Of a DNA stretch of 64,000 nucleotides, positions 21,972 to 33,590 are shown in pieces. Numbering within the stretch: position 1 is the first letter of the stretch; the number at the start of each line of letters is the position of its first letter. The DNA is taken from positions 1 to 64,000 of the forward strand of contig JAPSLB010000021.1 in NCBI GenBank assembly GCA_031181145.1. The letters are read 5' to 3'. The position numbers were made by a program, and so were the translations under genes. The stretch is from Microvirga sp. GTDB taxonomy: Bacteria > Pseudomonadota > Alphaproteobacteria > Rhizobiales > Beijerinckiaceae. Under the pieces are notes generated by a model. It saw nothing but the letters and a program-made list of their open reading frames with translations, was not told where the DNA came from and did not search any database.

Positions 21972-22112
21972 CGGGAACTCCGGCCGAACGCAAGAATGTG
22001 AGGCCTTTGAGCAACGGACGTCGTCCGGCGGAGTTCCTTGGCCGTGTCTTCTAACCTCTTTTCGGGGGGTGGTGTGGCTTTCCGGATGTCCTTTGGCTAC
22101 AAGCTCGCCATC

Positions 22113-23534
22113 ATGATCGCGAAACATCGGACATTCGATAAATTTGCCTGGATGGCGGAGCTGCGCGCCACGATCACGTTGGGCTGGCCCCTGGTTCTGA
22201 CCAACGTAGCGCAGAATGCCTTGTTGACCTCGGACGTCATCCTCATGGGATGGCTCGGCTCCGATGCGCTGGCGGCGGGCGCGCTCGGCACGAATCTCTA
22301 TTTCGCCTTCCTCATCTTCGGTATCGGCCTCATGAGCGCGACCTCGCCTCTGATCGCGGAGGAACTGGGCCGAAGACGCCATTCCGTCCGTGAGGTGCGC
22401 CGCACGGTGCGGCAGGGATTCTGGGCCGCAATCACCGTTGCGGTGCCGATCTGGATCGTGTCCTGGAACGGGGAGCTCCTCCTCCTCGCAATGGGGCAGG
22501 AGCCTGCGCTCGCGCATGTGGCGGGTCAGTACATGAGGGCGCTCCAATGGAGTTTGCTGCCCTTCCTGCTCTATCTGGTCCTGCGCTCCTTCCTGGCGGC
22601 GCTGGAACGGCCAGGTTGGCCGCTGATCATTGGCGTCATCGCCGTGCCGGTCAATCTCGGCGCAGCCTATTGCTTCATGTTCGGCAAGTTCGGCATGCCT
22701 CATCTCGGCCTGATCGGTGCGGGCGTCGGCACGGTGATATCCAGCACCTTCATGTTCGTGGCACTCGCCCTCGTGATCAGTCTCGATCCGAAGCTCAGGC
22801 GGTATCACATCTTCGGCCGCGTCTGGCGCTCCGACTGGCCGCGTTACCGCACCCTGTGGCGCATCGGCGTTCCCATCGGCCTGACACTGGCGTTCGAGGT
22901 GACGATCTTCAACGCGGCCGCCCTGCTCATGGGTCGCATCGGCGCCAATGAGCTGGCGGCTCATGCCATTGCCCTGCAGATCGCCTCCTTCTGTTTCATG
23001 GTGCCCTTCGGTCTCAGCCAGGCGGTAACCGTGCGGGTCGGCCGCGCCTATGGGGCTCAGGACGCCATGGGCGTGACCCGCGCCGGCTGGACGGCCTTCG
23101 CCCTCGCCACGGGCTTCATGATCGTGACGGCTTCCCTGATGCTTTTTGCGCCGCGCCTCCTGCTCAGCGCCTTCCTCGATCTCGACGATCCGAAGAACGC
23201 GCCGGTAGTCGCCTTCGCCATTTCCTTCCTCGTGATGGCGGCGCTCTTCCAGCTCGCCGATGCGGCGCAGGCCGTCGGCGCGGGCATGTTGCGCGGCCTG
23301 CAGGATACCCGGGTGCCGATGATCTATGCGGCTTTCGGCTATTGGGGCATCGGCCTGCCGCTCGGTGTCATCCTGGCCTTCGGCACGCCTCTTCGCGGCA
23401 TCGGCATCTGGATCGGTCTGGCGACGGGTCTCGGCGTCGTCGCCTCCCTGATGCTCTGGCGGTGGGTGCGCCGCGACAGGTTGGGGCTCGTCACGGCCGT
23501 GCCGAGAGACGTTCAGGAGGCCTTTGCGAGCTGA
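22113..23534 (+). CDS. MATE family efflux transporter
   Basis: A 473-residue membrane protein with about 12 helices in two halves, as in NorM-type multidrug and toxin extrusion proteins that export cations or drugs using sodium or proton gradients. Family marks include TLGWPLVLTNVAQNALL near the start and the AAQAVGAGMLRGLQDTRVP segment in the second half. The start is uncertain: ATGs at 22086, 22113 and 22152 all lack a clear binding site; 22113 gives the usual short N-tail before helix 1. It is divergent from the amidoligase gene. Its 3' end overlaps that of ispH by 22 bases (convergent). Confidence 0.88.
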   Translation: MIAKHRTFDKFAWMAELRATITLGWPLVLTNVAQNALLTSDVILMGWLGSDALAAGALGTNLYFAFLIFGIGLMSATSPLIAEELGRRRHSVREVRRTVRQGFWAAITVAVPIWIVSWNGELLLLAMGQEPALAHVAGQYMRALQWSLLPFLLYLVLRSFLAALERPGWPLIIGVIAVPVNLGAAYCFMFGKFGMPHLGLIGAGVGTVISSTFMFVALALVISLDPKLRRYHIFGRVWRSDWPRYRTLWRIGVPIGLTLAFEVTIFNAAALLMGRIGANELAAHAIALQIASFCFMVPFGLSQAVTVRVGRAYGAQDAMGVTRAGWTAFALATGFMIVTASLMLFAPRLLLSAFLDLDDPKNAPVVAFAISFLVMAALFQLADAAQAVGAGMLRGLQDTRVPMIYAAFGYWGIGLPLGVILAFGTPLRGIGIWIGLATGLGVVASLMLWRWVRRDRLGLVTAVPRDVQEAFAS

Positions 23535-24481
23535 GCGATCAGTCTTGAAAGCTCGACCGGAGCGAATTGCGCGCCCTCCTGGGTCACGCGGACTTCCTCG
23601 ACCGTGATCCGGCGCCACTGGGCGAGCAGGGCCAGGGCCTCCTGCACCATCCCTTCCGGGGCCGAGGCACCGGCGGTGATGCCGATCACCGCCGCGCCGT
23701 CGATGAAGGAGAGCGTGAGATCCTTCGAGTCCTGCATCAGAAGCGCAGGTCGCCCCTCGCTCTCCGCAACCTCGCAGAGGCGATTGGTGTTCGAGGAGTT
23801 GCGTGCGCCGCAGACGATGATGCGTTCTGCCCGCTTGGAGATCACGCGCACGGCGAGCTGGCGGTTCTGCGTGGCGTAGCAGATCGTCTTGGTGTCCGGC
23901 CCCTGGATGGCGGGAAAACGTGTCTTGAGGGCAGCGATGATCTCCCGTGTATCGTCGACCGAGAGAGTGGTCTGCGTCACGTAGGCGATGCGCTCCGGGT
24001 CGCTCACGACCAGTGCCAGCGCTTCTTCCACGCACTCGATCACATGGACGCCGCCGCCGATCTGCCCGATGGTGCCTTCCACCTCCACATGGCCGCGATG
24101 GCCGATGACGATTACCTCGCGGCCAGCTCTTGAATGCCGCTGTCCCTCGATGTGAACCCGGCGCACGAGGGGACAGGTGGCATCCAGTACCGCGAGATTG
24201 CGGGCCCTCGCCTGCCGCTCCACGGCATGGGAGACGCCATGTGCGCTGAAGATGGCCACTGCGCCGTCCGGGATCTCCTCCACATCGTCGACGAAGACGG
24301 CACCCTGCCGCTTCAGATCGTTCACGACACGCCCGTTATGTACGATCTCATGCCGCACATAGACAGGTCGGCCGGTTTGCTGAAGCGCGTCCTCGACGGC
24401 GCGGATGGCGCGCTCGACGCCTGCGCAGAAGCCGCGCGGCGCCGCCAGCAGTACAGTGAGGGAAGGAAGGTCCTTGCTCAT
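23513..24481 (-). CDS. ispH: 4-hydroxy-3-methylbut-2-enyl diphosphate reductase
   Basis: A 322-residue iron-sulfur enzyme that performs the last step of the MEP isoprenoid pathway, yielding IPP and DMAPP. The three cluster cysteines are present: Cys19 in PRGFCAGV, Cys103 in DATCPLV, Cys201 in TICYATQNRQ. The catalytic Glu lies in GHVEVEG. The active-site NSSNT motif is at 228-232. It ends a long carotenoid/squalene operon, with its ATG overlapping the hpnE stop as ATGA. Placing the precursor-supply enzyme in the operon would raise flux to the pigment. Whether the genome has another ispH cannot be seen here. Confidence 0.95.
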   Translation of the reverse strand: MSKDLPSLTVLLAAPRGFCAGVERAIRAVEDALQQTGRPVYVRHEIVHNGRVVNDLKRQGAVFVDDVEEIPDGAVAIFSAHGVSHAVERQARARNLAVLDATCPLVRRVHIEGQRHSRAGREVIVIGHRGHVEVEGTIGQIGGGVHVIECVEEALALVVSDPERIAYVTQTTLSVDDTREIIAALKTRFPAIQGPDTKTICYATQNRQLAVRVISKRAERIIVCGARNSSNTNRLCEVAESEGRPALLMQDSKDLTLSFIDGAAVIGITAGASAPEGMVQEALALLAQWRRITVEEVRVTQEGAQFAPVELSRLIAQLAKAS

Positions 24482-25767
24482 GCGGCGTCTTCTCGTCGGG
24501 GCGGATGGGCGCGCGAGGCATGAACTCCGGCGGAAGGTGGGTGCCGCAACGCCGCGACGGCCGCCTTGCCGGAGATGACGGCACTCTCGATGGTGGCCGG
24601 AAGTGCGCCCAGCCAGTCTCCCGCGAGCGCCAGATTGGCAAGGGGCCGCAAGGGCGGTTGCGGCAGCGAAGCGGCGTCCTGACGGATCGTGGCCCGCTTT
24701 TCCTTCACGATTCGCACCTCCGGCTGTCGATCAGCAACGACAACGAGTCCGAGATCGCGCAGCACCGGGACAATCTCGCGCCAGATGGTGGAGACGAGGA
24801 GATCGGGCGCCTCGCCGCGAGCCACGGCATCGGCTGCGGAGACCGTGACGCTCACATGATCCCGGCGTACAAGAAGCCATTGTGTCAGAGCGCTGGTGAA
24901 TCCGATGAACCGGGGCTTCTCCAGGCCGGGTAGGCGGAAATGCACGTTGAGGATCGCTTCGAACCGTTGCGGTACCGGCAGGGCGGGGAGCAGCCTTTCT
25001 ATTTCGTATGGCGGCAAAGCCAGGATCACGTGGTCTTCAGGCCCAAGGGCAATGGTGCGGTCCGTCAGGCTCAGGCCGATGACGCGCTCGCCATGAGTCA
25101 CAAGGTTCCTCACGCGCTGCCCCGCCAGGACAGGGACGCCCAGAACGTGAAGGGTCTCGATCACGGGCTGGACGAGGTCCTCGCCCAAGCCGTTCTTGGC
25201 CACCAGGAGGCGGCTCGCACGCGGCCACAGAAGGCGCCGCAGGGCGAGAGCGAGCCGGCGGGCGGATGCCACCTCAGGCGGTGTGTTGAGAACGGCCATC
25301 GTGAGCGGGCCAATGAGACTGTCCATGATCGGCCGGTCGCCGATGACGGAAGCCACGGGGCGATCCCGCACGGATAAGGCGAGGCGCACGAGGTGCGTGA
25401 GGTCCGTTACGCGCATATCCCGCGGACGGCGGGATGGCCACAGCCAGGACCAGGGCGATAATCCGATCGTCCGCATCGTCCCGGTGCGCAAGTCGTAGAG
25501 CGGAAGCCCCTTCCGCTCCGGCTCGATCCACCGGTCCCTTGCCCCGACCGCTTTGAGCAGGCCCAGCGCATGCCGGTTGGCCGAGAGCAGCACATGGGTG
25601 CCGTTGTCGTGCGAGAACCCATCGGCGGGGTGGATCGTCCGGCAGCGGCCGCCCGGCCAGGGAGCCGCCTCGTAGAGAACGGCCTCGCCTCCCTCCTTGG
25701 TTGCGGCGAGGGTGGCGCTCAGGCCGGCGATGCCGGCGCCGACGACATGGGTCCGCCTTGCCGTCAT
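24478..25767 (-). CDS. hpnE: Hydroxysqualene dehydroxylase HpnE
   Basis: A 429-residue FAD-dependent amine-oxidase-like protein. The dinucleotide-binding start THVVGAGIAGLSATLAA is followed by the PWPGGRCRTI and NGTHVLLS segments typical of HpnE, and the C-terminus has the NLALAGDWLGALPATIESA FAD motif. HpnE reduces hydroxysqualene to squalene, the third step of the HpnC/D/E route from farnesyl diphosphate. It is coupled by ATGA overlaps to the HpnC-HpnD fusion upstream and to ispH downstream. Confidence 0.9.
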   Translation of the reverse strand: MTARRTHVVGAGIAGLSATLAATKEGGEAVLYEAAPWPGGRCRTIHPADGFSHDNGTHVLLSANRHALGLLKAVGARDRWIEPERKGLPLYDLRTGTMRTIGLSPWSWLWPSRRPRDMRVTDLTHLVRLALSVRDRPVASVIGDRPIMDSLIGPLTMAVLNTPPEVASARRLALALRRLLWPRASRLLVAKNGLGEDLVQPVIETLHVLGVPVLAGQRVRNLVTHGERVIGLSLTDRTIALGPEDHVILALPPYEIERLLPALPVPQRFEAILNVHFRLPGLEKPRFIGFTSALTQWLLVRRDHVSVTVSAADAVARGEAPDLLVSTIWREIVPVLRDLGLVVVADRQPEVRIVKEKRATIRQDAASLPQPPLRPLANLALAGDWLGALPATIESAVISGKAAVAALRHPPSAGVHASRAHPPRREDAA

Positions 25768-27422
25768 GCGGGCCTCACGGCGCGGGTGAGAAGCTGCAGT
25801 TTGTCCGCCGCAGTCAGCTGGATCCGGCCTTGGCGCGTGCCCCAGCCGCGGGCGGTGAGCCGGTCGAGGACGCGGCGGTAGTTCTCCATCATCAGGATCG
25901 CGGGCTTGAGCGCGCCCCTATCGAGACGGGTCAGGGCCTCGTCCGCGGCGGCAAAGCCTGCGCGCGCCTCCTCGGCCAGGGTTTCGCAGACCCGGGCGAA
26001 GCGCGGGTCTGCGACGAGAACGGCAGCGGGCGCATCCTGCACGCCGAGCTGAGCGAGCCGGGAGAGCGGAATATAGACCCGCTCGCGCGCGGCATCCTCA
26101 TCCACGTCGCGCAGGATGTTCACGAGCTGCAGAGTGCGCCCGAGATCCAGGGCGAAGGAGCGGGCTTTCGGCGCGCCGAAGATATGCACCGAGAGAGTGC
26201 CGACGGAGCCTGCCACACGGCGGCCGTAGAGCTGAAGGTCATAATCGCTCCTCAGGCGCAGCCTTTCGGCACAATCCATCTCCATGCCGTCGAGGAGGGC
26301 GTGGCATTCGTCAAGCGGCAGCTTGAACAAGCTGGAGGCGCGGGCGAGTTCGCGGCCGACAGGCGTTTCCGGCGCGCGATGCAGGCGGTCGATCTCCCGA
26401 CGCCATTCGCGCAGGGCGCATATTTTCTCGGAGACGGGGACGATGCCATCCGCAACGTCATCCACGGCGCGGCAGAAGGCATAGACCGCGTGAATGGCGC
26501 GACGGCGCTCATGACTCAGACTGTGCATGCCGAGCCGGAAGGAAGAGCCCGATCGGCGCACGGCCGCTGCGGTGATGCGCGCGTCGCCGTTCCCCGGCTT
26601 GCGGACGAGGCCCGACAGGCCCGTCAGGAAAGCCTGCGCTGCATCCGCCTTGCCGATCGCGACACGTTCGACGGCCGGATCTCTGCGGCGCAGGTGCTGG
26701 CTCAAGCGTTCGGCAAGTGCGATGGTGGCCATGCTTTGAGCGCGCAGGCGCTTATTCTGCAGGCGCTCCGGCAAGGCACGCGCCCGGTCGATCAATTCAT
26801 CGACGCGATCCAGCATGGCGTCGAGCACCATGCGTCTAGCCTTTGCCTGGGCGGGCGTGAAAAAGGCTCTCTCGCCTCCGCCCAGCATCGTCCATTGAAG
26901 GGGGATGTAGATTCGCCCCAGATGCTCATGATCCTGACGGCAGTCCTGCAGGTGGTTGAGAATCTGCAAAGCGGTGCAAAGCGCATCCGCGGGCACCTGC
27001 GCGGCGGCGCACTCCCCATGAAGCTGCAGCAGGAAGCGTCCGGCCGGATTGGCGGAGCGCCGGCAATAGTCGAGAAGCTCCGTCCAGTCGTTGTAGCGCG
27101 CCTTGATCGCATCCTGCCGGAAGGCGTGCAGCAGCTCGCGGGCTTGAGCAATGCCTGTCTTGTGCCTTCTATCCACATGGTGAAGTCGTGCCGCCTCGGG
27201 AATCCGCGGATCGCCTGTCACGAGCGCCTGCTCAAGCGCGTCCAGGCGGGTCAGCTTTTCGGCGGCTCCGAGATCGGCGGCATCGGCAATGTCGTCGGCC
27301 ATGCGCACGAAGCCATAAAAAGCGAGCACTGCCTCCCGATGTTCGGGCGACAGCACGAGGGAGGCGACAGGGAAGTTTTCGGTTTTCGGTGTCTTGGTCG
27401 GTTCTCTCGCCAGCGTGCTCAT
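25764..27422 (-). CDS. HpnC-HpnD fusion: squalene/phytoene synthase-type double enzyme
   Basis: A 552-residue protein with two complete squalene/phytoene synthase-family domains in one open frame. Domain 1 (about 10-280, HpnC-like) has acidic motifs DDIAD (43-47) and LQDCRQD (158-164) then GRIYIP. Domain 2 (about 283-552, HpnD-like) has DDVAD (321-325) and ILRDVDED (436-443) then RVYIPL. Each domain is about the size of one family member. HpnD joins two farnesyl diphosphates into presqualene diphosphate and HpnC converts it to hydroxysqualene, so the fusion could pass the intermediate directly. It starts 4 bases after the glycosyltransferase stop. Most bacteria encode these as separate proteins. 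Confidence 0.88.
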   Translation of the reverse strand: MSTLAREPTKTPKTENFPVASLVLSPEHREAVLAFYGFVRMADDIADAADLGAAEKLTRLDALEQALVTGDPRIPEAARLHHVDRRHKTGIAQARELLHAFRQDAIKARYNDWTELLDYCRRSANPAGRFLLQLHGECAAAQVPADALCTALQILNHLQDCRQDHEHLGRIYIPLQWTMLGGGERAFFTPAQAKARRMVLDAMLDRVDELIDRARALPERLQNKRLRAQSMATIALAERLSQHLRRRDPAVERVAIGKADAAQAFLTGLSGLVRKPGNGDARITAAAVRRSGSSFRLGMHSLSHERRRAIHAVYAFCRAVDDVADGIVPVSEKICALREWRREIDRLHRAPETPVGRELARASSLFKLPLDECHALLDGMEMDCAERLRLRSDYDLQLYGRRVAGSVGTLSVHIFGAPKARSFALDLGRTLQLVNILRDVDEDAARERVYIPLSRLAQLGVQDAPAAVLVADPRFARVCETLAEEARAGFAAADEALTRLDRGALKPAILMMENYRRVLDRLTARGWGTRQGRIQLTAADKLQLLTRAVRPA

Positions 27423-27426
27423 CGCG

Positions 27427-28530
27427 TCATCCCACCGGATAGAGCCTGCCCTTCCACCCCGTCCTATGCGTACGGCCGATCCGCAGAAGAACGCTCCACT
27501 GGATCGCCAGGCTCGTCAGGATGGTGAAGGGATGGAAAAGGATTGAGACTGGATTCTCCCGAGTCGCCACCGTCACCATGGCGCGGGTTGCAAGCGAGAG
27601 CAGGACGGCCCCCACGATCGGCCAGGTCGGCATGGCCGGGAGAAAAACGAATGGCAGCACATGCCCGCCCAGGAGCAGAACGGTCCAGACCGGCAGCGCC
27701 ACGGGCTTCGCCATGCCCTCGTGGGCGTTCTTCGCGAAACCGTTCCAGGCGTCCGCAAAGCGCGTGTACATGCGGCACGAGGCGAGCCTGTCGCCCGTCA
27801 CGAGATCGGTCATGAGGCCGTTGCGCCGGAACTGCCGGGAGAGCTGGATGCCGTCATGGATCAGGGAACGGATGGCGGCATGGCCGCCGCTCGCGCGATA
27901 CGCGTCCCGCTCCACGAGCATCAGCTGCCCGCAGGCCGCCCCGAACCCCGGCTGGACCGATGCGCGCATGAGGCCCATGGGCAGATAGCCGAGGAGGAGC
28001 AGATTGATCGCCGGTACGGTGAGCCACTCGCCCGGTGCTTTCATGATCTGCCGCGGAACCGCGCTGACCAGGCCGGCGCCTGTCGCCTGGGCATGTCCGG
28101 CCAGAAGGCTCGCGGCATGGGGCGTCAATCTCACATCAGCGTCGACGAAGAGGAAATGGGTTCCGCGCGCATGCTTCGAAAGATGGTGGCAGGCGTGGAC
28201 CTTCCCGGTCCATCCTTCCGCGAGGGGCGGTGCATTCATCAGGCGGATGCGCGGGTCGCGGGAGGCCATGGAACGGACAATCTCGGCGGTGGCATCCGTG
28301 GATCCGTCGTCCATCACCAGCACTTCGATGTCGACTCCCCGGCTCGCAAGGGCCGCTTCGACGGCGGGCCCGATATTGGCCGCCTCGTTACGCGCCGGGA
28401 TGAGGACGGAAACGAGGGTTCGTTCACGTGCGGACGCACGGGGCGTTCGCCTCAAGATCTCCAGGTTGACGACCGCAAGCCCAGCCGGAACTGCCGCGAG
28501 TAACAGAAGGACGAGGGCGAGCACCGTCAT
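27427..28530 (-). CDS. Membrane glycosyltransferase family 2 (carotenoid glycosyltransferase candidate)
   Basis: A 367-residue GT2 enzyme with an N-terminal membrane helix (about 3-22), a catalytic domain (IPARNEAANI, MDDGSTDAT, DxD at Asp130-Ala-Asp132 in FVDADV) and three or so C-terminal helices. This layout matches CrtQ-type transferases that put glucose on the carboxyl end of C30 carotenoids. The gene context (two CrtN-like genes and an acyltransferase) supports this, but the sugar and acceptor are inferred. Its ATG overlaps the acyltransferase stop (ATGA). Confidence 0.82.
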   Translation of the reverse strand: MTVLALVLLLLAAVPAGLAVVNLEILRRTPRASARERTLVSVLIPARNEAANIGPAVEAALASRGVDIEVLVMDDGSTDATAEIVRSMASRDPRIRLMNAPPLAEGWTGKVHACHHLSKHARGTHFLFVDADVRLTPHAASLLAGHAQATGAGLVSAVPRQIMKAPGEWLTVPAINLLLLGYLPMGLMRASVQPGFGAACGQLMLVERDAYRASGGHAAIRSLIHDGIQLSRQFRRNGLMTDLVTGDRLASCRMYTRFADAWNGFAKNAHEGMAKPVALPVWTVLLLGGHVLPFVFLPAMPTWPIVGAVLLSLATRAMVTVATRENPVSILFHPFTILTSLAIQWSVLLRIGRTHRTGWKGRLYPVG

Positions 28531-29363
28531 GGCCGACGACCCTCATGGGAGGGGTTGAAGGAGCGCCCGGACAAGGCGGAGCTCATGCGGCGCCAGCCGT
28601 CGTAGACGCCGCCCACGCCCGCCCGTCCTTCGATCAGGGGCTGGAAACGCGCAGGGTCACGGGTCTTCACATCGTCGCTCAGGCGGTCGACCACCTTCGT
28701 GAGTTCCGCATCGAGACGCTGCAAGCGGGTCGGGCGGGAGAGATCGAGCAGATCGCGACCGCGCATGGGATGGCCGAAGGCCGTGAAGGCTTCCGCGCCC
28801 CGCTCGAGCCAGAATCCGTATTCTATGCCGAGGGGGATGATGGTGCATTCAGGCGCGATCTCGGCCAAGCGCGCGATCCCGGGCTTCAGCCCGAGAGGGC
28901 GCTCCCGCACATCGGAAAAGCGGCCCTGTGCCGTCACCCAGAGAGCGCGTTGGGGTGAAGACAGAATGTCCGCGCTCGCCGTCAGGAAGGCGGCCGCGCC
29001 CCGCGTGGTGTGCAGATCCACCCCGAACGCGCCGATGCGGCCGAAGATGCCATATCTTTTCAGCATCTCGGCATCGATGGGAGCATAGCTCTCGTAGGAC
29101 GGAAACAGGCGATCCGCCAAGAGGATGTAGACGGCTGCATCCCACCATGACGGGTGGTTGGAGTAAACGACGACCGGGCCGCTGCGCGGTACGTCTGGAA
29201 GGCCCCATGAGGCGATCCTCAGAGCATTCATATGCCGGGCGAAATAGCGGCGGAACACGGATACCATGAACCGGTGGATTGTCGCGGAGCGGCGCGCGAC
29301 CGGGGAGAGCCCTGTCTGCCGGGAGAGCCTGGGTCCTCCTGCCGCTCTGCCTCTAGCCTGCAT
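28527..29363 (-). CDS. PlsC-like acyltransferase (carotenoid glycoside acylation candidate)
   Basis: A 278-residue protein of the lysophospholipid acyltransferase superfamily. The HX4D catalytic motif is at His70-Asp75 in SNHPSWWD; further downstream FSDVRERPLG replaces the usual FPEGT block. It would move an acyl chain to a hydroxyl. In this operon the likely acceptor is the sugar of a glycosylated carotenoid, as in staphyloxanthin-type pigments. The ATG overlaps the upstream desaturase stop as TGATG. An in-frame ATG at residue 33 is a possible alternative start. Confidence 0.78.
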   Translation of the reverse strand: MQARGRAAGGPRLSRQTGLSPVARRSATIHRFMVSVFRRYFARHMNALRIASWGLPDVPRSGPVVVYSNHPSWWDAAVYILLADRLFPSYESYAPIDAEMLKRYGIFGRIGAFGVDLHTTRGAAAFLTASADILSSPQRALWVTAQGRFSDVRERPLGLKPGIARLAEIAPECTIIPLGIEYGFWLERGAEAFTAFGHPMRGRDLLDLSRPTRLQRLDAELTKVVDRLSDDVKTRDPARFQPLIEGRAGVGGVYDGWRRMSSALSGRSFNPSHEGRRP

Positions 29364-30898
29364 CAGGATGCGTTCCGTAAATTCTCGGCCTTGAGATCGG
29401 CGTCGAGGGCATCGGCGGCGATCCAGCCTGACATCATTACCATCGGCATCCCGGGGCCCGGATGGGCCGCGCCGCCAGCGAGATACAGTCCACGTACCTT
29501 TCGGCTCCGGTTGCCGGGCTTGAAGGCGCCCATGAACTTGCCATGGCTCGCCAAGCCGTAAATCGCGCCGTTCAGAACCTTGTAGCGATCATGGATGTCC
29601 TGGGGGGTCAGGTGGCGCTCGACGACGATGCGTTCCTCAATGTCATGCATTCCAGCCGTGCGTTTGAGCTTGTCAATGATCGTCTGGCGATAGTCCGAGA
29701 ACATTTGAGACCAGTCGTGGTGAGGCCGCAAATAGGGCGTGTGGACCAGAACGTAGAGTGCTTCTCCCCCCACTGGCGCGACGCTCGGGTCGGTTCCGGC
29801 CGGGGCTGCGAGATAGCAGGTCGGGTCGGGAGCGGGCTCGCCGCGGCGATAGATGTAGTCGAACTCCTCTTCCGGATCGCGCGAGAACACGAAGTCGTGA
29901 TGAAGGATGTGGTCGTATCGCTTGTTCAAACCGAGATAAAGCACAACGCCCGAGCAGGCCGGTTCGAAGTCCTTGCGCGCGTAATGCTCGCCCACTTCGC
30001 CGCCCACGAGCTCGCGGTAGGTGCGGATGGAGTCCATGTTGGAGATGACGCTGTCGTACGACGCGGTTTCGCCGTTAGCGAGGACAAGACCCTTCACCTC
30101 GCCGTTCTCGATCTGCAGCGATGCCACATCCGATGCGGGCCTGAAGGCGGCGCCGAGTTCGGAGGCCAGCTTCATCAGCGCTTCGGCGACGGCTCGCGTG
30201 CCGCCCATGGGATACCACACGCCCTCCGCCGCCTGCATGTGAGCGATGGCGCAGAGCACGGCGGGGGAGCCATAGGGCGAGGAACCCACATATTGCGTGA
30301 AGTGATCGAGCATCTGCGCCAGCCGCTCGTCCTTCACCTTGGAGCGGATGGTGCCCGCAACGGACGATCCCATGCGCAACGACAGAACATCCCGCAGGGT
30401 GGCGGGGTTCATATTGGCGCGGATGTTGATGGTGTCGAACAAATCTTCAACCGATTTCCAGAAGAAGAAGCGGTTGGAGATGTCGTGGAGATGGGCCGAG
30501 ATCTCCTGGAAGCGCTTGTAGCCGTCACCCGCGCCCGTGCCGGGAGCGAAACGGTCCATGGCCGCAGACATCGCTGGGATGTTCTCCTGCAGGTCGATAT
30601 GTGTGCCGTCATCGAAGAAGCAGCGCCATTGCGGGTCCAGCCGGATGAGGTCGAGATAATCCGAGAGGTTGCGTCCGGCTTCTGCGAAGATGCGCTCCAG
30701 AACGCGTGGGACGGTGAGGATCGTGGGTCCCATATCGAAGCGAAAGCCACCCTCGTGCAGCACCGCTGCCTTGCCGCCGAGCCATGGATTCTTGTCGTAG
30801 AGCGTCACTTGGTAGCCACGTGCCGCCGCGACGCACGCCGCCGCCAATCCACCCAGACCGCCACCGATCACGGCAGCCGAAGATGCTTGAGCGCTCAC
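29363..30898 (-). CDS. CrtN/CrtI-type carotenoid desaturase or oxidase (second of operon)
   Basis: A 511-residue FAD enzyme of the phytoene desaturase family. The Rossmann start AAVIGGGLGGLAAACVA (about 8-24) leads into DKNPWLGGKAA and FRFDMGPTILTVP. The C-terminus has the family FAD motif GLYLAGGAAHPGPGMPMV. Members of this family in C30 pathways either introduce double bonds into squalene or dehydrosqualene (CrtN) or oxidise terminal methyl groups (CrtP/CrtNb). Two paralogs in one operon suggest a division of these jobs; which one does what is not decided here. Confidence 0.88.
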   Translation of the reverse strand: MSAQASSAAVIGGGLGGLAAACVAAARGYQVTLYDKNPWLGGKAAVLHEGGFRFDMGPTILTVPRVLERIFAEAGRNLSDYLDLIRLDPQWRCFFDDGTHIDLQENIPAMSAAMDRFAPGTGAGDGYKRFQEISAHLHDISNRFFFWKSVEDLFDTINIRANMNPATLRDVLSLRMGSSVAGTIRSKVKDERLAQMLDHFTQYVGSSPYGSPAVLCAIAHMQAAEGVWYPMGGTRAVAEALMKLASELGAAFRPASDVASLQIENGEVKGLVLANGETASYDSVISNMDSIRTYRELVGGEVGEHYARKDFEPACSGVVLYLGLNKRYDHILHHDFVFSRDPEEEFDYIYRRGEPAPDPTCYLAAPAGTDPSVAPVGGEALYVLVHTPYLRPHHDWSQMFSDYRQTIIDKLKRTAGMHDIEERIVVERHLTPQDIHDRYKVLNGAIYGLASHGKFMGAFKPGNRSRKVRGLYLAGGAAHPGPGMPMVMMSGWIAADALDADLKAENLRNAS

Positions 30899-31013
30899 AA
30901 AGATCCTCCAGTCGGGTCTGAACCGTCGATCGCTGTCCAGAAGGTTCTCAGGTCTCTGGTCCTGACTAGGCGGGTGACCTGAGGTTTTGGTTGTAGGAAG
31001 CGAAAAACGCAGT

Positions 31014-31316
31014 TCAAGGTAACCTCCCGATCAAGGGGCGGCGGGTGCAGATCATTCGCAGCACACGTCCGCCCGATGCGCGAATGACGGGAACGGAATA
31101 CTGGAGAGTGTCGCCGGCTTCTCGAACGGCGGACACGGCCGCAACCGCATAGGCCGCAGGGCTTCATCCGCGCGTTCCGTTGTTGTTGGTGTCGCAGATT
31201 CCGGCAAAGATCATGCCTTGCGCGGAGCCGACGCTTTCCGACCCGATGGCGAGCGTCGCCGCCTGAGCCCAGGACGCGATCAGAACAAGACCGAGGATCC
31301 ATCCAATGCGTCCCAT
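31014..31316 (-). pseudogene. Small secreted ORF with in-frame TGA at codon 51
   Basis: An ATG at 31316 opens a frame of 100 sense positions to the stop at 31014-31016, interrupted once by TGA at 31164-31166. The first 50 residues include a good signal peptide (GRIGWILGLVLIASWAQAA) and end in DTNNNGTRG. The part after the TGA (SPAAYAVAAVSAVREAGDTL and on) stays open for 49 codons and looks like a continued secreted domain. A TGG-to-TGA change is the simplest reading, giving a broken gene; a real 50-residue product or readthrough is possible. It sits between the two crtN-like genes, 11 bases after the first. Confidence 0.5.
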
Positions 31317-31326
31317 GTGCGTTCCT

Positions 31327-32877
31327 TCACAAGATGGCTTCGCGGGTTGCTTCGGCAGGAGGCGCCTGCTCCAGCCATCCGGGGCGGCGGCGTTCCCAAT
31401 CCTCCATCAGGAGGCGCGTGGTGATGAGCGCCCCTTCGAAGATCACAGGCAGGCCGCTGCCGGGATGCGTGCCGCCGCCGACTAGATAGACATTGTGGCC
31501 GAACCGGTTGTGGGGCCGGAAATAGAGCATCTGCGTGAGGTTGTGCGCGAGGTTGAAGGTCGCGCCTTCGTATACGGAGAACTCATCCTGCCAGCCGCGC
31601 GGGGTCACCATGCGCTCGAAGCGGATGCGGTTTTCGATGTCGGTGAGGCCCAAGAGCTCGAGGCGCTCGATCGCGAGCCTGCGATAGCGGGGTGCCTCCT
31701 TCTGCCAGTCGATATTGCACCTTAGGTTCGGAACGGGCACGAGCACATAGAGACTCGTGTGTCCTTCCGGAGCAAGCGACGGATCGGTTGCGCCCGCATG
31801 CTGGACGTAGATTGAGGGTTCTTTCGAAAGAATTCCTTCGGTGATTTCGCGGATGTTCCGCTCGTAATCTCGAGCGAGAAGAATTGTGTGGTGGGCAAGA
31901 TCCCCAACGTCACCTTCGATGCCCAGATAGAGCATGAAGGTCGAACAGGAGAGCTTTGCCCGACCAAGCTTCCTGTCCGTCCAGCGCGGGCGCATGGATT
32001 CCGGAACGAGGCGGCGCACGGCGTGCCCGAAATCGCCGTTGACCACAATGGAGCCTGCCGCGAAGCGCTCTCCGCCCGCCTCCACGCCCACAGCCTCGCC
32101 ATCCTCGTAGAGGATGCGTTCGACCGGGGTATTGAGCCGAATATCGACCCCCATCCTGCGGGCGACGTTCGCCATGGCTTCCGACACGGCGCCGCAGCCG
32201 CCGACAGGATGGTAGACGCCGTGTTCGTATTCCAGGAATGACAGGATCGTGAAAAGGCTCGGGCACTGGAACGGCGACATCCCGAGATATTTCGTCTGAA
32301 ACGAGAAGGCGAGGCGTACGCGCGGATCGGCGAAGTAGCGCTTCAGGTCACCGTCCACGCTGGAAAAGGGCCTCAGTTTCGGCAAAGCGGCGAGCATCGC
32401 CGGCGTTGCGAGATCGACCGGGCTCGTGAAGGCCTGTTCGAGAACGGGGCGGAAGGCTTCGAGCTTTGCGCGATTGTCGTCGAGAAAGCGGCGGACGTTG
32501 CGCGCATCCGCAGGCGCAAGACATGCGATCTCCTGCTCGAGGCGCACCAGATCGGCTGTCGCCCGAATTTCGCCGCCGCCCTCGAAGATCAGGTGATATT
32601 GCGGGTCGAGGCGTCTGAGCTCCACATGGTCCTCCAGACGCTCGCCGCATTCTTCGAAGATGTCCCTCAATACGCGCGGGTAGAGAAAGAACGTGGGACC
32701 GATATCAAATTTGTAGCCGCCGGGCGCATGGATCGTCCGCGTTCGACCGCCAACGGCGGGCTCGCTCTCGAATATTGTTACGGGAATGCCTTTCCGTGCG
32801 AGCAGCATGGCGGATGCGAGGCCTCCGGGACCTGCTCCGACAACAGCCACGCGCGATGACTGCGAGGCACTCGCCAT
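31327..32877 (-). CDS. CrtN/CrtI-type carotenoid desaturase (first of operon)
   Basis: A 516-residue FAD enzyme of the phytoene desaturase family. The N-terminal VAVVGAGPGGLASAMLLA motif (about 10-27) is followed by ESEPAVGGRTRTI and YKFDIGPTFFLYP. The C-terminal FAD motif is NVYLVGGGTHPGSGLPVI. It is the first gene of the operon; GGGGTGAG precedes the ATG. It probably acts on squalene or a dehydrogenated C30 chain to build the conjugated chromophore. It is clearly diverged from the second desaturase, so this is not a recent duplication. Confidence 0.88.
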   Translation of the reverse strand: MASASQSSRVAVVGAGPGGLASAMLLARKGIPVTIFESEPAVGGRTRTIHAPGGYKFDIGPTFFLYPRVLRDIFEECGERLEDHVELRRLDPQYHLIFEGGGEIRATADLVRLEQEIACLAPADARNVRRFLDDNRAKLEAFRPVLEQAFTSPVDLATPAMLAALPKLRPFSSVDGDLKRYFADPRVRLAFSFQTKYLGMSPFQCPSLFTILSFLEYEHGVYHPVGGCGAVSEAMANVARRMGVDIRLNTPVERILYEDGEAVGVEAGGERFAAGSIVVNGDFGHAVRRLVPESMRPRWTDRKLGRAKLSCSTFMLYLGIEGDVGDLAHHTILLARDYERNIREITEGILSKEPSIYVQHAGATDPSLAPEGHTSLYVLVPVPNLRCNIDWQKEAPRYRRLAIERLELLGLTDIENRIRFERMVTPRGWQDEFSVYEGATFNLAHNLTQMLYFRPHNRFGHNVYLVGGGTHPGSGLPVIFEGALITTRLLMEDWERRRPGWLEQAPPAEATREAIL

Positions 32878-33176
32878 GGATCACTCACCCCATGGGCTGA
32901 CGGATAAGCCGGGAGCCCTGACTGAGCCCAAGTAGAACAGCGCGATTTGAAGACCAGGGGTGCACCCTTCCAGAGAGCGCATTTCGGAAATCTACTATCA
33001 GGGATATGAAACGATATTAAGGAAGTAGCGATCTAAACAGCCAGATTTCAGGCTATAGTTTCGAGCGATGCGCTGTCTCAAAAGTATGAGTTTGTAAGGA
33101 GAAAATCTAAGCGCCTTATTCTTGCCTTTTTAAAGTTGAGCTTCACTTCCAATCGAAACGGAAGGGGAGTCGATCT
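32878..33176. promoter_or_regulatory. Divergent promoter region between the carotenoid operon and rlpA
   Basis: About 300 bases between two divergent genes, noticeably A/T-rich from 32990 to 33150 compared with the flanks. It should contain the minus-strand promoter for the whole carotenoid/squalene operon and the plus-strand promoter for the RlpA gene. I could not identify a specific operator with confidence. Confidence 0.5.
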
Positions 33177-33590
33177 TTGAAGAACATCCTCACCCGCGTG
33201 TCAGCAATCGCACCACTTCTATTTGTTGCGGCATGCAATACGACTGCGTCCAACGATCCATCGAGCACGGGATCAATCTCCCAGGCCAGCCTGGGCAAGG
33301 AACTTCAGCGCGGTACGGCCTCCTGGTACGGTCCAGGCTTCCATGGCCGGAAGACCGCCAGCGGGGAACGCTTCAACTCGAATGCCATGACTGCGGCCCA
33401 CCGTTCCCTGCCTTTCGGCACCCGTCTGAGGGTTGTCAACGAGCAGAATGGGCGCTCTGTAATTGTTCGCGTCAATGATCGCGGACCCTTTGCCCACCGG
33501 CGCATCATCGATCTTGCGAAAGGGCCGGCCCAAGCTCTAGGGCTGACCACGGCCGGGACCGGATATGTCTCCCTGCATAGACTCGACTGA
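33177..33590 (+). CDS. rlpA: RlpA-family septal-ring lipoprotein
   Basis: A 137-residue lipoprotein with a lipobox LFVAAC (Cys20) and a double-psi beta-barrel RlpA domain (about 46-137). Diagnostic segments are TASWYGPGFHGRKTASGE, NSNAMTAAHRSLPFGT and VNDRGPFAHRRIIDLAK. RlpA enzymes cut peptidoglycan strands lacking stem peptides or bind them at septa. There is no SPOR domain, so it is the short form. The start is TTG, supported by GGGAG 7 bases upstream and by the signal peptide; no ATG fits. Confidence 0.9.
   Translation: MKNILTRVSAIAPLLFVAACNTTASNDPSSTGSISQASLGKELQRGTASWYGPGFHGRKTASGERFNSNAMTAAHRSLPFGTRLRVVNEQNGRSVIVRVNDRGPFAHRRIIDLAKGPAQALGLTTAGTGYVSLHRLD

Follow-up and report, generated by a model that had tools for sequence, protein, structure and literature searches.

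Organization of the Operon

The stretch of DNA analyzed here, referred to as the window, comprises positions 1 to 64,000 of contig JAPSLB010000021.1 (assembly GCA_031181145.1, Microvirga sp.). It contains seven minus-strand genes that very probably form an operon dedicated to making a C30 carotenoid by the squalene route in this Microvirga-like bacterium. The evidence consists of the genes and their order, a fusion of hpnC and hpnD, a second ispH, a scar between two of the genes, and no match to squalene-hopene cyclase in the assembly, all read from sequence; the glycosyltransferase and acyltransferase steps were established by others in Methylobacterium extorquens AM1. The assembly is 4.56 Mb in 93 contigs and is 89.55% complete. 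Its nearest named relative in the fusion-protein search is M. makkahensis (90% identity).

The seven intact open reading frames (ORFs) occur in the order crtN, scar, crtP, PlsC-like acyltransferase (AT), family 2 glycosyltransferase (GT2), hpnC-hpnD fusion, hpnE, and ispH (Table 1). A preliminary description of this DNA had listed eight tightly joined units. Seven are intact, on one strand, and of the families given there, but the eighth, a small secreted ORF, is the scar. The distances between consecutive genes from crtN to ispH are 428, −1, −4, +4, −4, and −4 base pairs (bp). The ATGA or TGATG joins described earlier hold in the sense that five of the six junctions overlap or have a 4-bp gap; crtN and crtP are well separated. 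CrtN and CrtP are the only two proteins in the whole assembly that exceed the TIGR02734 cut-off, and they were named by similarity to locus L074, described below, and by synteny.

Table 1. Genes and gene remnants of the operon (aa, amino acids; SAM, S-adenosylmethionine)
Feature	Position in window	Strand	Supporting match
crtN-type diapocarotene desaturase, 516 aa	31327..32877	-	TIGR02734, 508.5 bits (cut-off 238.1); 69% identity to L074 CrtN
Scar 5' part, head of DUF2141 (PF09912) secreted-protein gene	31187..31316	-	79% DNA identity to L006 over 214 bp including the crtN end
Scar middle, short piece matching methyltransferase gene interior (weak)	31154..31178	-	22 of 25 bases to L006, E 6e-4
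Scar 3' part, SAM-methyltransferase gene tail	31014..31091	-	85% DNA identity to L006 over 243 bp reaching the crtP start
crtP-type terminal oxidase, 511 aa	29363..30898	-	TIGR02734, 403 bits; 80% identity to L074 CrtP
PlsC-like acyltransferase (AT), 278 aa	28527..29363	-	PF01553, 28 bits; 61% identity to L074; syntenic counterpart of META1p3664
GT2 glycosyltransferase, 367 aa	27427..28530	-	PF00535; 60% identity to L074; syntenic counterpart of META1p3663
HpnC-HpnD fusion, 552 aa	25764..27422	-	Both halves above NCBIfam cut-offs; aspartate-rich motifs in both halves
HpnE-like hydroxysqualene dehydroxylase, 429 aa	24478..25767	-	TIGR03467 best match, residues 7-407, 222.5 bits (cut-off 283.05)
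Second IspH paralogue, 322 aa	23513..24481	-	PF02401, 296.3 bits; own clade in tree

Squalene Enzymes

The fusion protein scores 343.8 bits with HpnC (NCBIfam cut-off 250.45) and 354.5 bits with HpnD (278.6). Aspartate-rich motifs are present in both halves of the 37 fusions examined, with the sole exception of HpnD motif 2 in one of them. In the HpnC tree, for which the program gave a long-branch warning, the HpnC halves of 37 fusions and of the decayed locus L031 cluster together (support 90/93). Adjacent to them is the unfused HpnC of Roseobacteraceae pigment loci (94/87), and hopanoid-type HpnC from the same family make up a different clade (99/96, starred). The hopanoid hpnC-hpnD-hpnE-shc clusters of genomes G209 and G008 contain the same squalene enzyme families as the window, but their genes are unfused, adjoin the cyclase gene, and encode an HpnC of that other clade. 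On the CrtP tree of 60 rows, from which L060, L062, L063, and other duplicate loci were left out, the fusion requires two changes.

Correspondence to Methylobacterium extorquens AM1

Deletion and complementation in AM1 (PMC10448405) showed that META1p3663 glycosylates and META1p3664 acylates 4,4'-diapolycopenedioic acid. A strain lacking META1p3663 stops at the diacid, and one lacking META1p3664 at the glucosyl diacid. The same source names META1p3665 CrtP and META1p3670 CrtN. These four genes (META1p3663-3665 and 3670, considered with META1p1815-1817) show the CrtN, CrtP, acyltransferase, and GT2 order of the window, and squalene is likewise made by HpnC, HpnD, and HpnE. AM1 differs in that hpnC, hpnD, hpnE, and the cyclase gene are separate genes at another locus. 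In the window, the hpn genes lie inside the operon, hpnC is fused to hpnD, an ispH paralogue is added, and a cyclase was not found in the assembly.

At the AT/GT2 junction of locus L074 (group g9), the AM1 primer sites 3663F and 3664R both match perfectly; L074 also has two further sites, with one mismatch. From these primer sites and the identities of its four proteins to those of the window, group g9 would represent Methylobacterium/Methylorubrum.

The AT-GT2 pair is syntenic with the deletion-proven AM1 pair, so the operon probably yields an acyl-glucosyl diapolycopenedioate with squalene as its precursor. By analogy, one would expect the pigment of AM1, 4-(octadecenoyl-glucosyl)-4,4'-diapolycopenedioic acid, or a molecule closely similar to it. 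In the proposed pathway, the fused HpnC-HpnD and HpnE would convert two farnesyl diphosphate (FPP) to squalene, CrtN would desaturate squalene, and CrtP would oxidize the terminal methyls. The acid would be formed by CrtP itself or by a further, unassigned step. GT2 would then add the glucosyl ester, and the PlsC-like enzyme would acylate the sugar. The operon copy of IspH would raise the supply of isopentenyl and dimethylallyl diphosphate during operon expression. We infer the product, the roles of CrtN and CrtP here, the role of IspH, and the single use of squalene. The C30 route of the preliminary description, from FPP through squalene to CrtN/CrtP products, glycosylation, and acylation, is supported by the protein families and by AM1 synteny.

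No aldehyde dehydrogenase occurs among the operon proteins in a profile scan that covered the operon only, in agreement with the earlier remark. In AM1, the acid-forming enzyme is not known, no aldehyde dehydrogenase was found, and two AldH candidates were without effect, according to PMC10448405. The earlier remark therefore touches on a question already recognized in AM1 without answering it. The word complete, applied to the operon in the preliminary description, is not supported, as no gene is assigned to acid formation, the same as in AM1. Staphyloxanthin synthesis (CrtM, CrtN, CrtP, AldH, CrtQ, and CrtO, as listed in that paper) follows the same logic of desaturation, terminal oxidation, glucosylation, and acylation. 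In the window, the squalene route would take the place of CrtM, AldH is not in the operon, and the PlsC-like acyltransferase replaces CrtO.

Distribution

The fusion-protein search gave 53 named loci, 28 of them Microvirga. The seven genes have the same order on one strand in 26 of the 28 Microvirga loci, and the gene order is therefore not due to chance. Because these loci were found through the fusion, they do not measure operon frequency. Two decayed copies of the operon with broken frames are found in L031 (M. vignae) and L055 (Microvirga sp. KLBC 81).

A family-wide draw of 248 genomes (GTDB-type family group) contained crtP in 33 genomes of seven genera at E <= 1e-150. Seven of the 15 genomes of the window's genus contain it and eight do not, so the operon is common in Microvirga but not universal. 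Genomes with the fusion beside crtP are termed operonic and number 13 of the 33, ten by synteny and three by coordinates (G070, G157, and G170). Genome G124 was left unclassified (contig end; 74% complete).

The same seven genes are present in Salinarimonas (L029), three g21 genomes, and loci L075 and L071 of group g34, which is taken to be Salinarimonas, the last with ispH cut by the contig end. Loci L032-L034 (Roseomonas, Falsiroseomonas, and a Frigidibacter bin) contain crtN, crtP, AT, GT2, the fused hpnC-hpnD, and hpnE in the order of the window, but differ in having no ispH match in the 18-22 kb examined and an AT that is only 45-47% identical. In the Roseobacteraceae loci L035, L036, L038, and L039, hpnC and hpnD are separate. 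The suggestion that IspH and the fusion make up a lineage-specific architecture is borne out, with the correction that it extends beyond one genus (Microvirga, Salinarimonas, and g21).

The operon is a known pathway in a new arrangement; relative to AM1, what is new is the fusion and the ispH paralogue inside the pigment operon. A literature search did not find the fusion or Microvirga C30 pigments in print, but it did not cover the likeliest papers, so novelty of the arrangement in print is not claimed.

The IspH Paralogue

The window's assembly carries two ispH genes, the operon copy and another on contig C23 (G000:C23). A tree of 71 distinct rows, reduced from 80 sequences, separates an operon clade of 32 rows (100/98) from a housekeeping clade of 31 rows (100/100). 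Neither clade includes the remaining rows, which are seven further extra copies and a distant outlier. The two clades argue against the operon IspH being a recent copy of the housekeeping gene. In the 41 genomes checked, two ispH matches are present in each of the 13 operonic genomes and in G124, one of those in G101 being cut by a contig end. The operon IspH, previously described as supplying isoprenoid units, would not be the sole supplier, since it is a second, divergent copy and the housekeeping ispH lies elsewhere in the assembly.

Second ispH copies were also observed within 3-4 kb of the squalene-hopene cyclase gene in G209, G122, G086, and G075. An origin of the operon IspH in a hopanoid cluster is not claimed, as the tree does not join the cyclase-adjacent copies to the operon clade.

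The Gap Between crtN and crtP

As judged by alignment, the gap between crtN and crtP is the deletion remnant of two genes, retaining the beginning of one, which codes for DUF2141, and the end of the other, which codes for a SAM-methyltransferase. The small ORF read from position 31316, formerly counted as a gene unit, reaches a stop after 50 codons, and its alignment to both gene remnants rules it out as a gene or selenoprotein. Over residues 1-44 of its 134, the DUF2141 protein of M. guangxiensis is 61% identical to the 5' part of the scar; this protein, encoded in the same gap, matches PF09912 at E 6e-27. Both genes are intact between crtN and crtP in M. pakistanensis (L006), and the window's lineage would have lost its upstream DUF2141 gene and its methyltransferase gene. 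A shorter scar occupies this position in M. makkahensis (L004).

In other Microvirga, the gap houses up to two genes, encoding a secreted DUF2141 protein and a protein of about 360 amino acids with a SAM-methyltransferase domain (PF13649). Of the 26 seven-gene Microvirga loci, 22 carry a full-length methyltransferase and four (L004, L011, L024, and L025) have none; in 12, DUF2141 is present at 87% or more of its length. Presence of the methyltransferase switches at least four times on the CrtP tree (27 Microvirga rows), which does not decide the direction of change. In profile comparison with solved structures, the methyltransferase comes nearest to DSYB and a MTHB methyltransferase, followed by DnrK, MmcR, and similar small-molecule methyltransferases. 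From its position, the enzyme may methylate the free acid of the pigment. At E <= 1e-20 it matches five of the 248 family genomes, all in the window's genus. Identity with the methyltransferase postulated for M. extorquens PA1, whose gene is not known, was considered and rejected, as there is no match outside the genus at this threshold.

For DUF2141, the AlphaFold model (mean predicted local distance difference test score 85.7) gave no match in a PDB search at E <= 0.001, and thus no fold-based function. DUF2141 genes are reported beside crtG in Sphingomonadales (PMC5989583). The AM1-like loci have an ATP-binding cassette (ABC) ATPase and an ABC-2 permease between DUF2141 and crtP (L074:6216-8395, by Pfam; L069:11260-13400, by eye). 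L074 further differs from the window by a GATase-like gene in the same interval. The ABC pair points to export of the pigment, in which DUF2141 would act as a partner in the periplasm.

Squalene-Hopene Cyclase

No match to squalene-hopene cyclase (PF13243) was found in the window's assembly at its present completeness. The cyclase is absent from all 13 operonic genomes and from G124, and present in all 19 other crtP genomes. Because no cyclase was found in the window's assembly, the squalene of this strain is probably used for pigment alone.

Genome G122, of the same genus, is an exception and contains the fusion plus a cyclase; it has no crtP at E <= 1e-150. Its cyclase cluster is without HpnC or HpnE in the stretch examined, and a fusion-HpnE pair on another contig holds its only HpnC, HpnE not having been searched genome-wide. 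This pattern fits squalene made by the fusion-HpnE pair. Taken together, L125 and L126, where the cyclase cluster has neither hpnC nor hpnE and an isolated fusion-hpnE pair sits at the edge of a contig, give the impression that squalene modules were swapped.

G122 bears on the possibility that the fusion makes diapophytoene directly, as CrtM does, with the HpnE-like flavoprotein performing another step such as acid formation. The divergence of HpnE and the acid-forming enzyme missing from the operon would agree with this. However, both halves of the fusion exceed the HpnC and HpnD cut-offs, and in G122 the fusion with HpnE is the only HpnC source beside a cyclase that requires squalene. Direct synthesis of diapophytoene is thus improbable compared with the squalene route.

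C40 Carotenoid Genes and the Zeaxanthin Report

The window's assembly has three squalene/phytoene synthase (SQS/PSY) regions, namely the two halves of the fusion and a 280-amino-acid paralogue on contig C67. No CrtB was found in the assembly: against CrtB equivalogs (cut-offs 480-550), the C67 paralogue, its single SQS/PSY apart from the fusion, reaches at most 42 bits, and inspection by eye shows no DxxxD motif where one is usually located. For lycopene cyclase, PF05834 matched nothing in the assembly beyond short fragments of 26 bits or less; other cyclase types were not searched. All seven genomes compared have such matches of 26 bits or less, mostly to the first 33-52 of 380 positions; several exceed the cut-off, which is low at 23.4, and a frame in M. 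subterranea, counted with its neighbors, attains 35 bits. PF05834 matches occur likewise in 9 or 10 of 14 control genomes.

Zeaxanthin absorbs at about 450 nm, and absorption at 503 and 525 nm is redder. The pigment of M. sesbaniae SWF67558 was assigned as zeaxanthin by mass (m/z 569.3/570.3) in a high-performance liquid chromatography-mass spectrometry study, which reports extract absorption at 503 and 525 nm and cites a crtB of 842 bp and a crtI of 1481 or 1550 bp (PMC11356035). Locus L022 is from strain HBU67692 of this study. Its crtN is 1551 bp long from the homologous start. Apart from the fusion, the strain has a single SQS/PSY, a 280-amino-acid ORF of 843 bp with less than 52 bits to the CrtB equivalogs. 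Because the lengths fit (843 against 842 bp and 1551 against 1550 bp), the "crtI" of that paper is very likely this crtN, and its "crtB" would be the paralogue without aspartate motifs. The published zeaxanthin assignment, as far as the sequences indicate, conflicts with the gene content.

A C40 pigment, either zeaxanthin or another carotenoid made through CrtB and CrtI, would explain the mass and the crtBI genes reported for M. sesbaniae. It is nevertheless improbable, slightly more so than a CrtM-like fusion, in view of the low-scoring C67 paralogue, the fragmentary lycopene cyclase matches, the gene lengths in HBU67692, and the red-shifted extract.

Assessment of the Reading

Least probable of all is an HpnCDE block that mainly serves hopanoids and is merely co-resident with the pigment genes: HpnCDE are classical hopanoid genes and G122 combines fusion and cyclase, but the cyclase was not found in the window's assembly or in the operonic genomes, and PMC12583986 (Table 2) lists Shc 4 for GyrB 45 in Microvirga.

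Several points weigh against an operon dedicated to a squalene-derived C30 carotenoid. HpnE is the best match over nearly the full length but lies under the NCBIfam cut-off, the acyltransferase is a weak Pfam match, and acid formation has no gene in the operon. Sister-group support for the fused-HpnC clade falls below the starred level. The cyclase split counts genomes and not independent events, with three genera against four. Absences from an assembly of this completeness are provisional. Zeaxanthin has been published for a congener, and the mass given in that report is not explained by a C30 pigment.

A broader reading joins these results, tentatively and with somewhat less than an even chance of being correct as a whole. 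Through fusion of HpnC with HpnD, recruitment of HpnE and another IspH to the pigment operon, and disappearance of the cyclase, squalene would have been released from hopanoid synthesis into a C1-to-pigment branch of its own. The methyltransferase restricted to Microvirga, with several gains or losses, would tune the head group, giving a methyl ester where it is present and a free acid where it is not, as in the window. The pink Microvirga pigments would then be C30 carotenoids and the zeaxanthin report mistaken.

The operon provides a testable gene basis for the pink Microvirga pigment and calls the published zeaxanthin assignment into question. The candidate methyltransferase would explain head-group differences between species, and the fusion is predicted to be a single squalene-making enzyme. 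With 13 operonic genomes lacking the cyclase and 19 others carrying it, the division of squalene between pigment and hopanoids is directly testable.

Flanking Features

A MATE-family transporter gene (window 22038-23534) is convergent with ispH and overlaps it by 22 bp. The same gene follows ispH in many Microvirga loci. Upstream of crtN, a block at window 33100-33220 is strongly conserved across 12 aligned Microvirga sequences. On the plus strand, this block continues into a lipoprotein-like start near 33177, so that it could belong to a divergent gene as its leader or serve both sides as a promoter.

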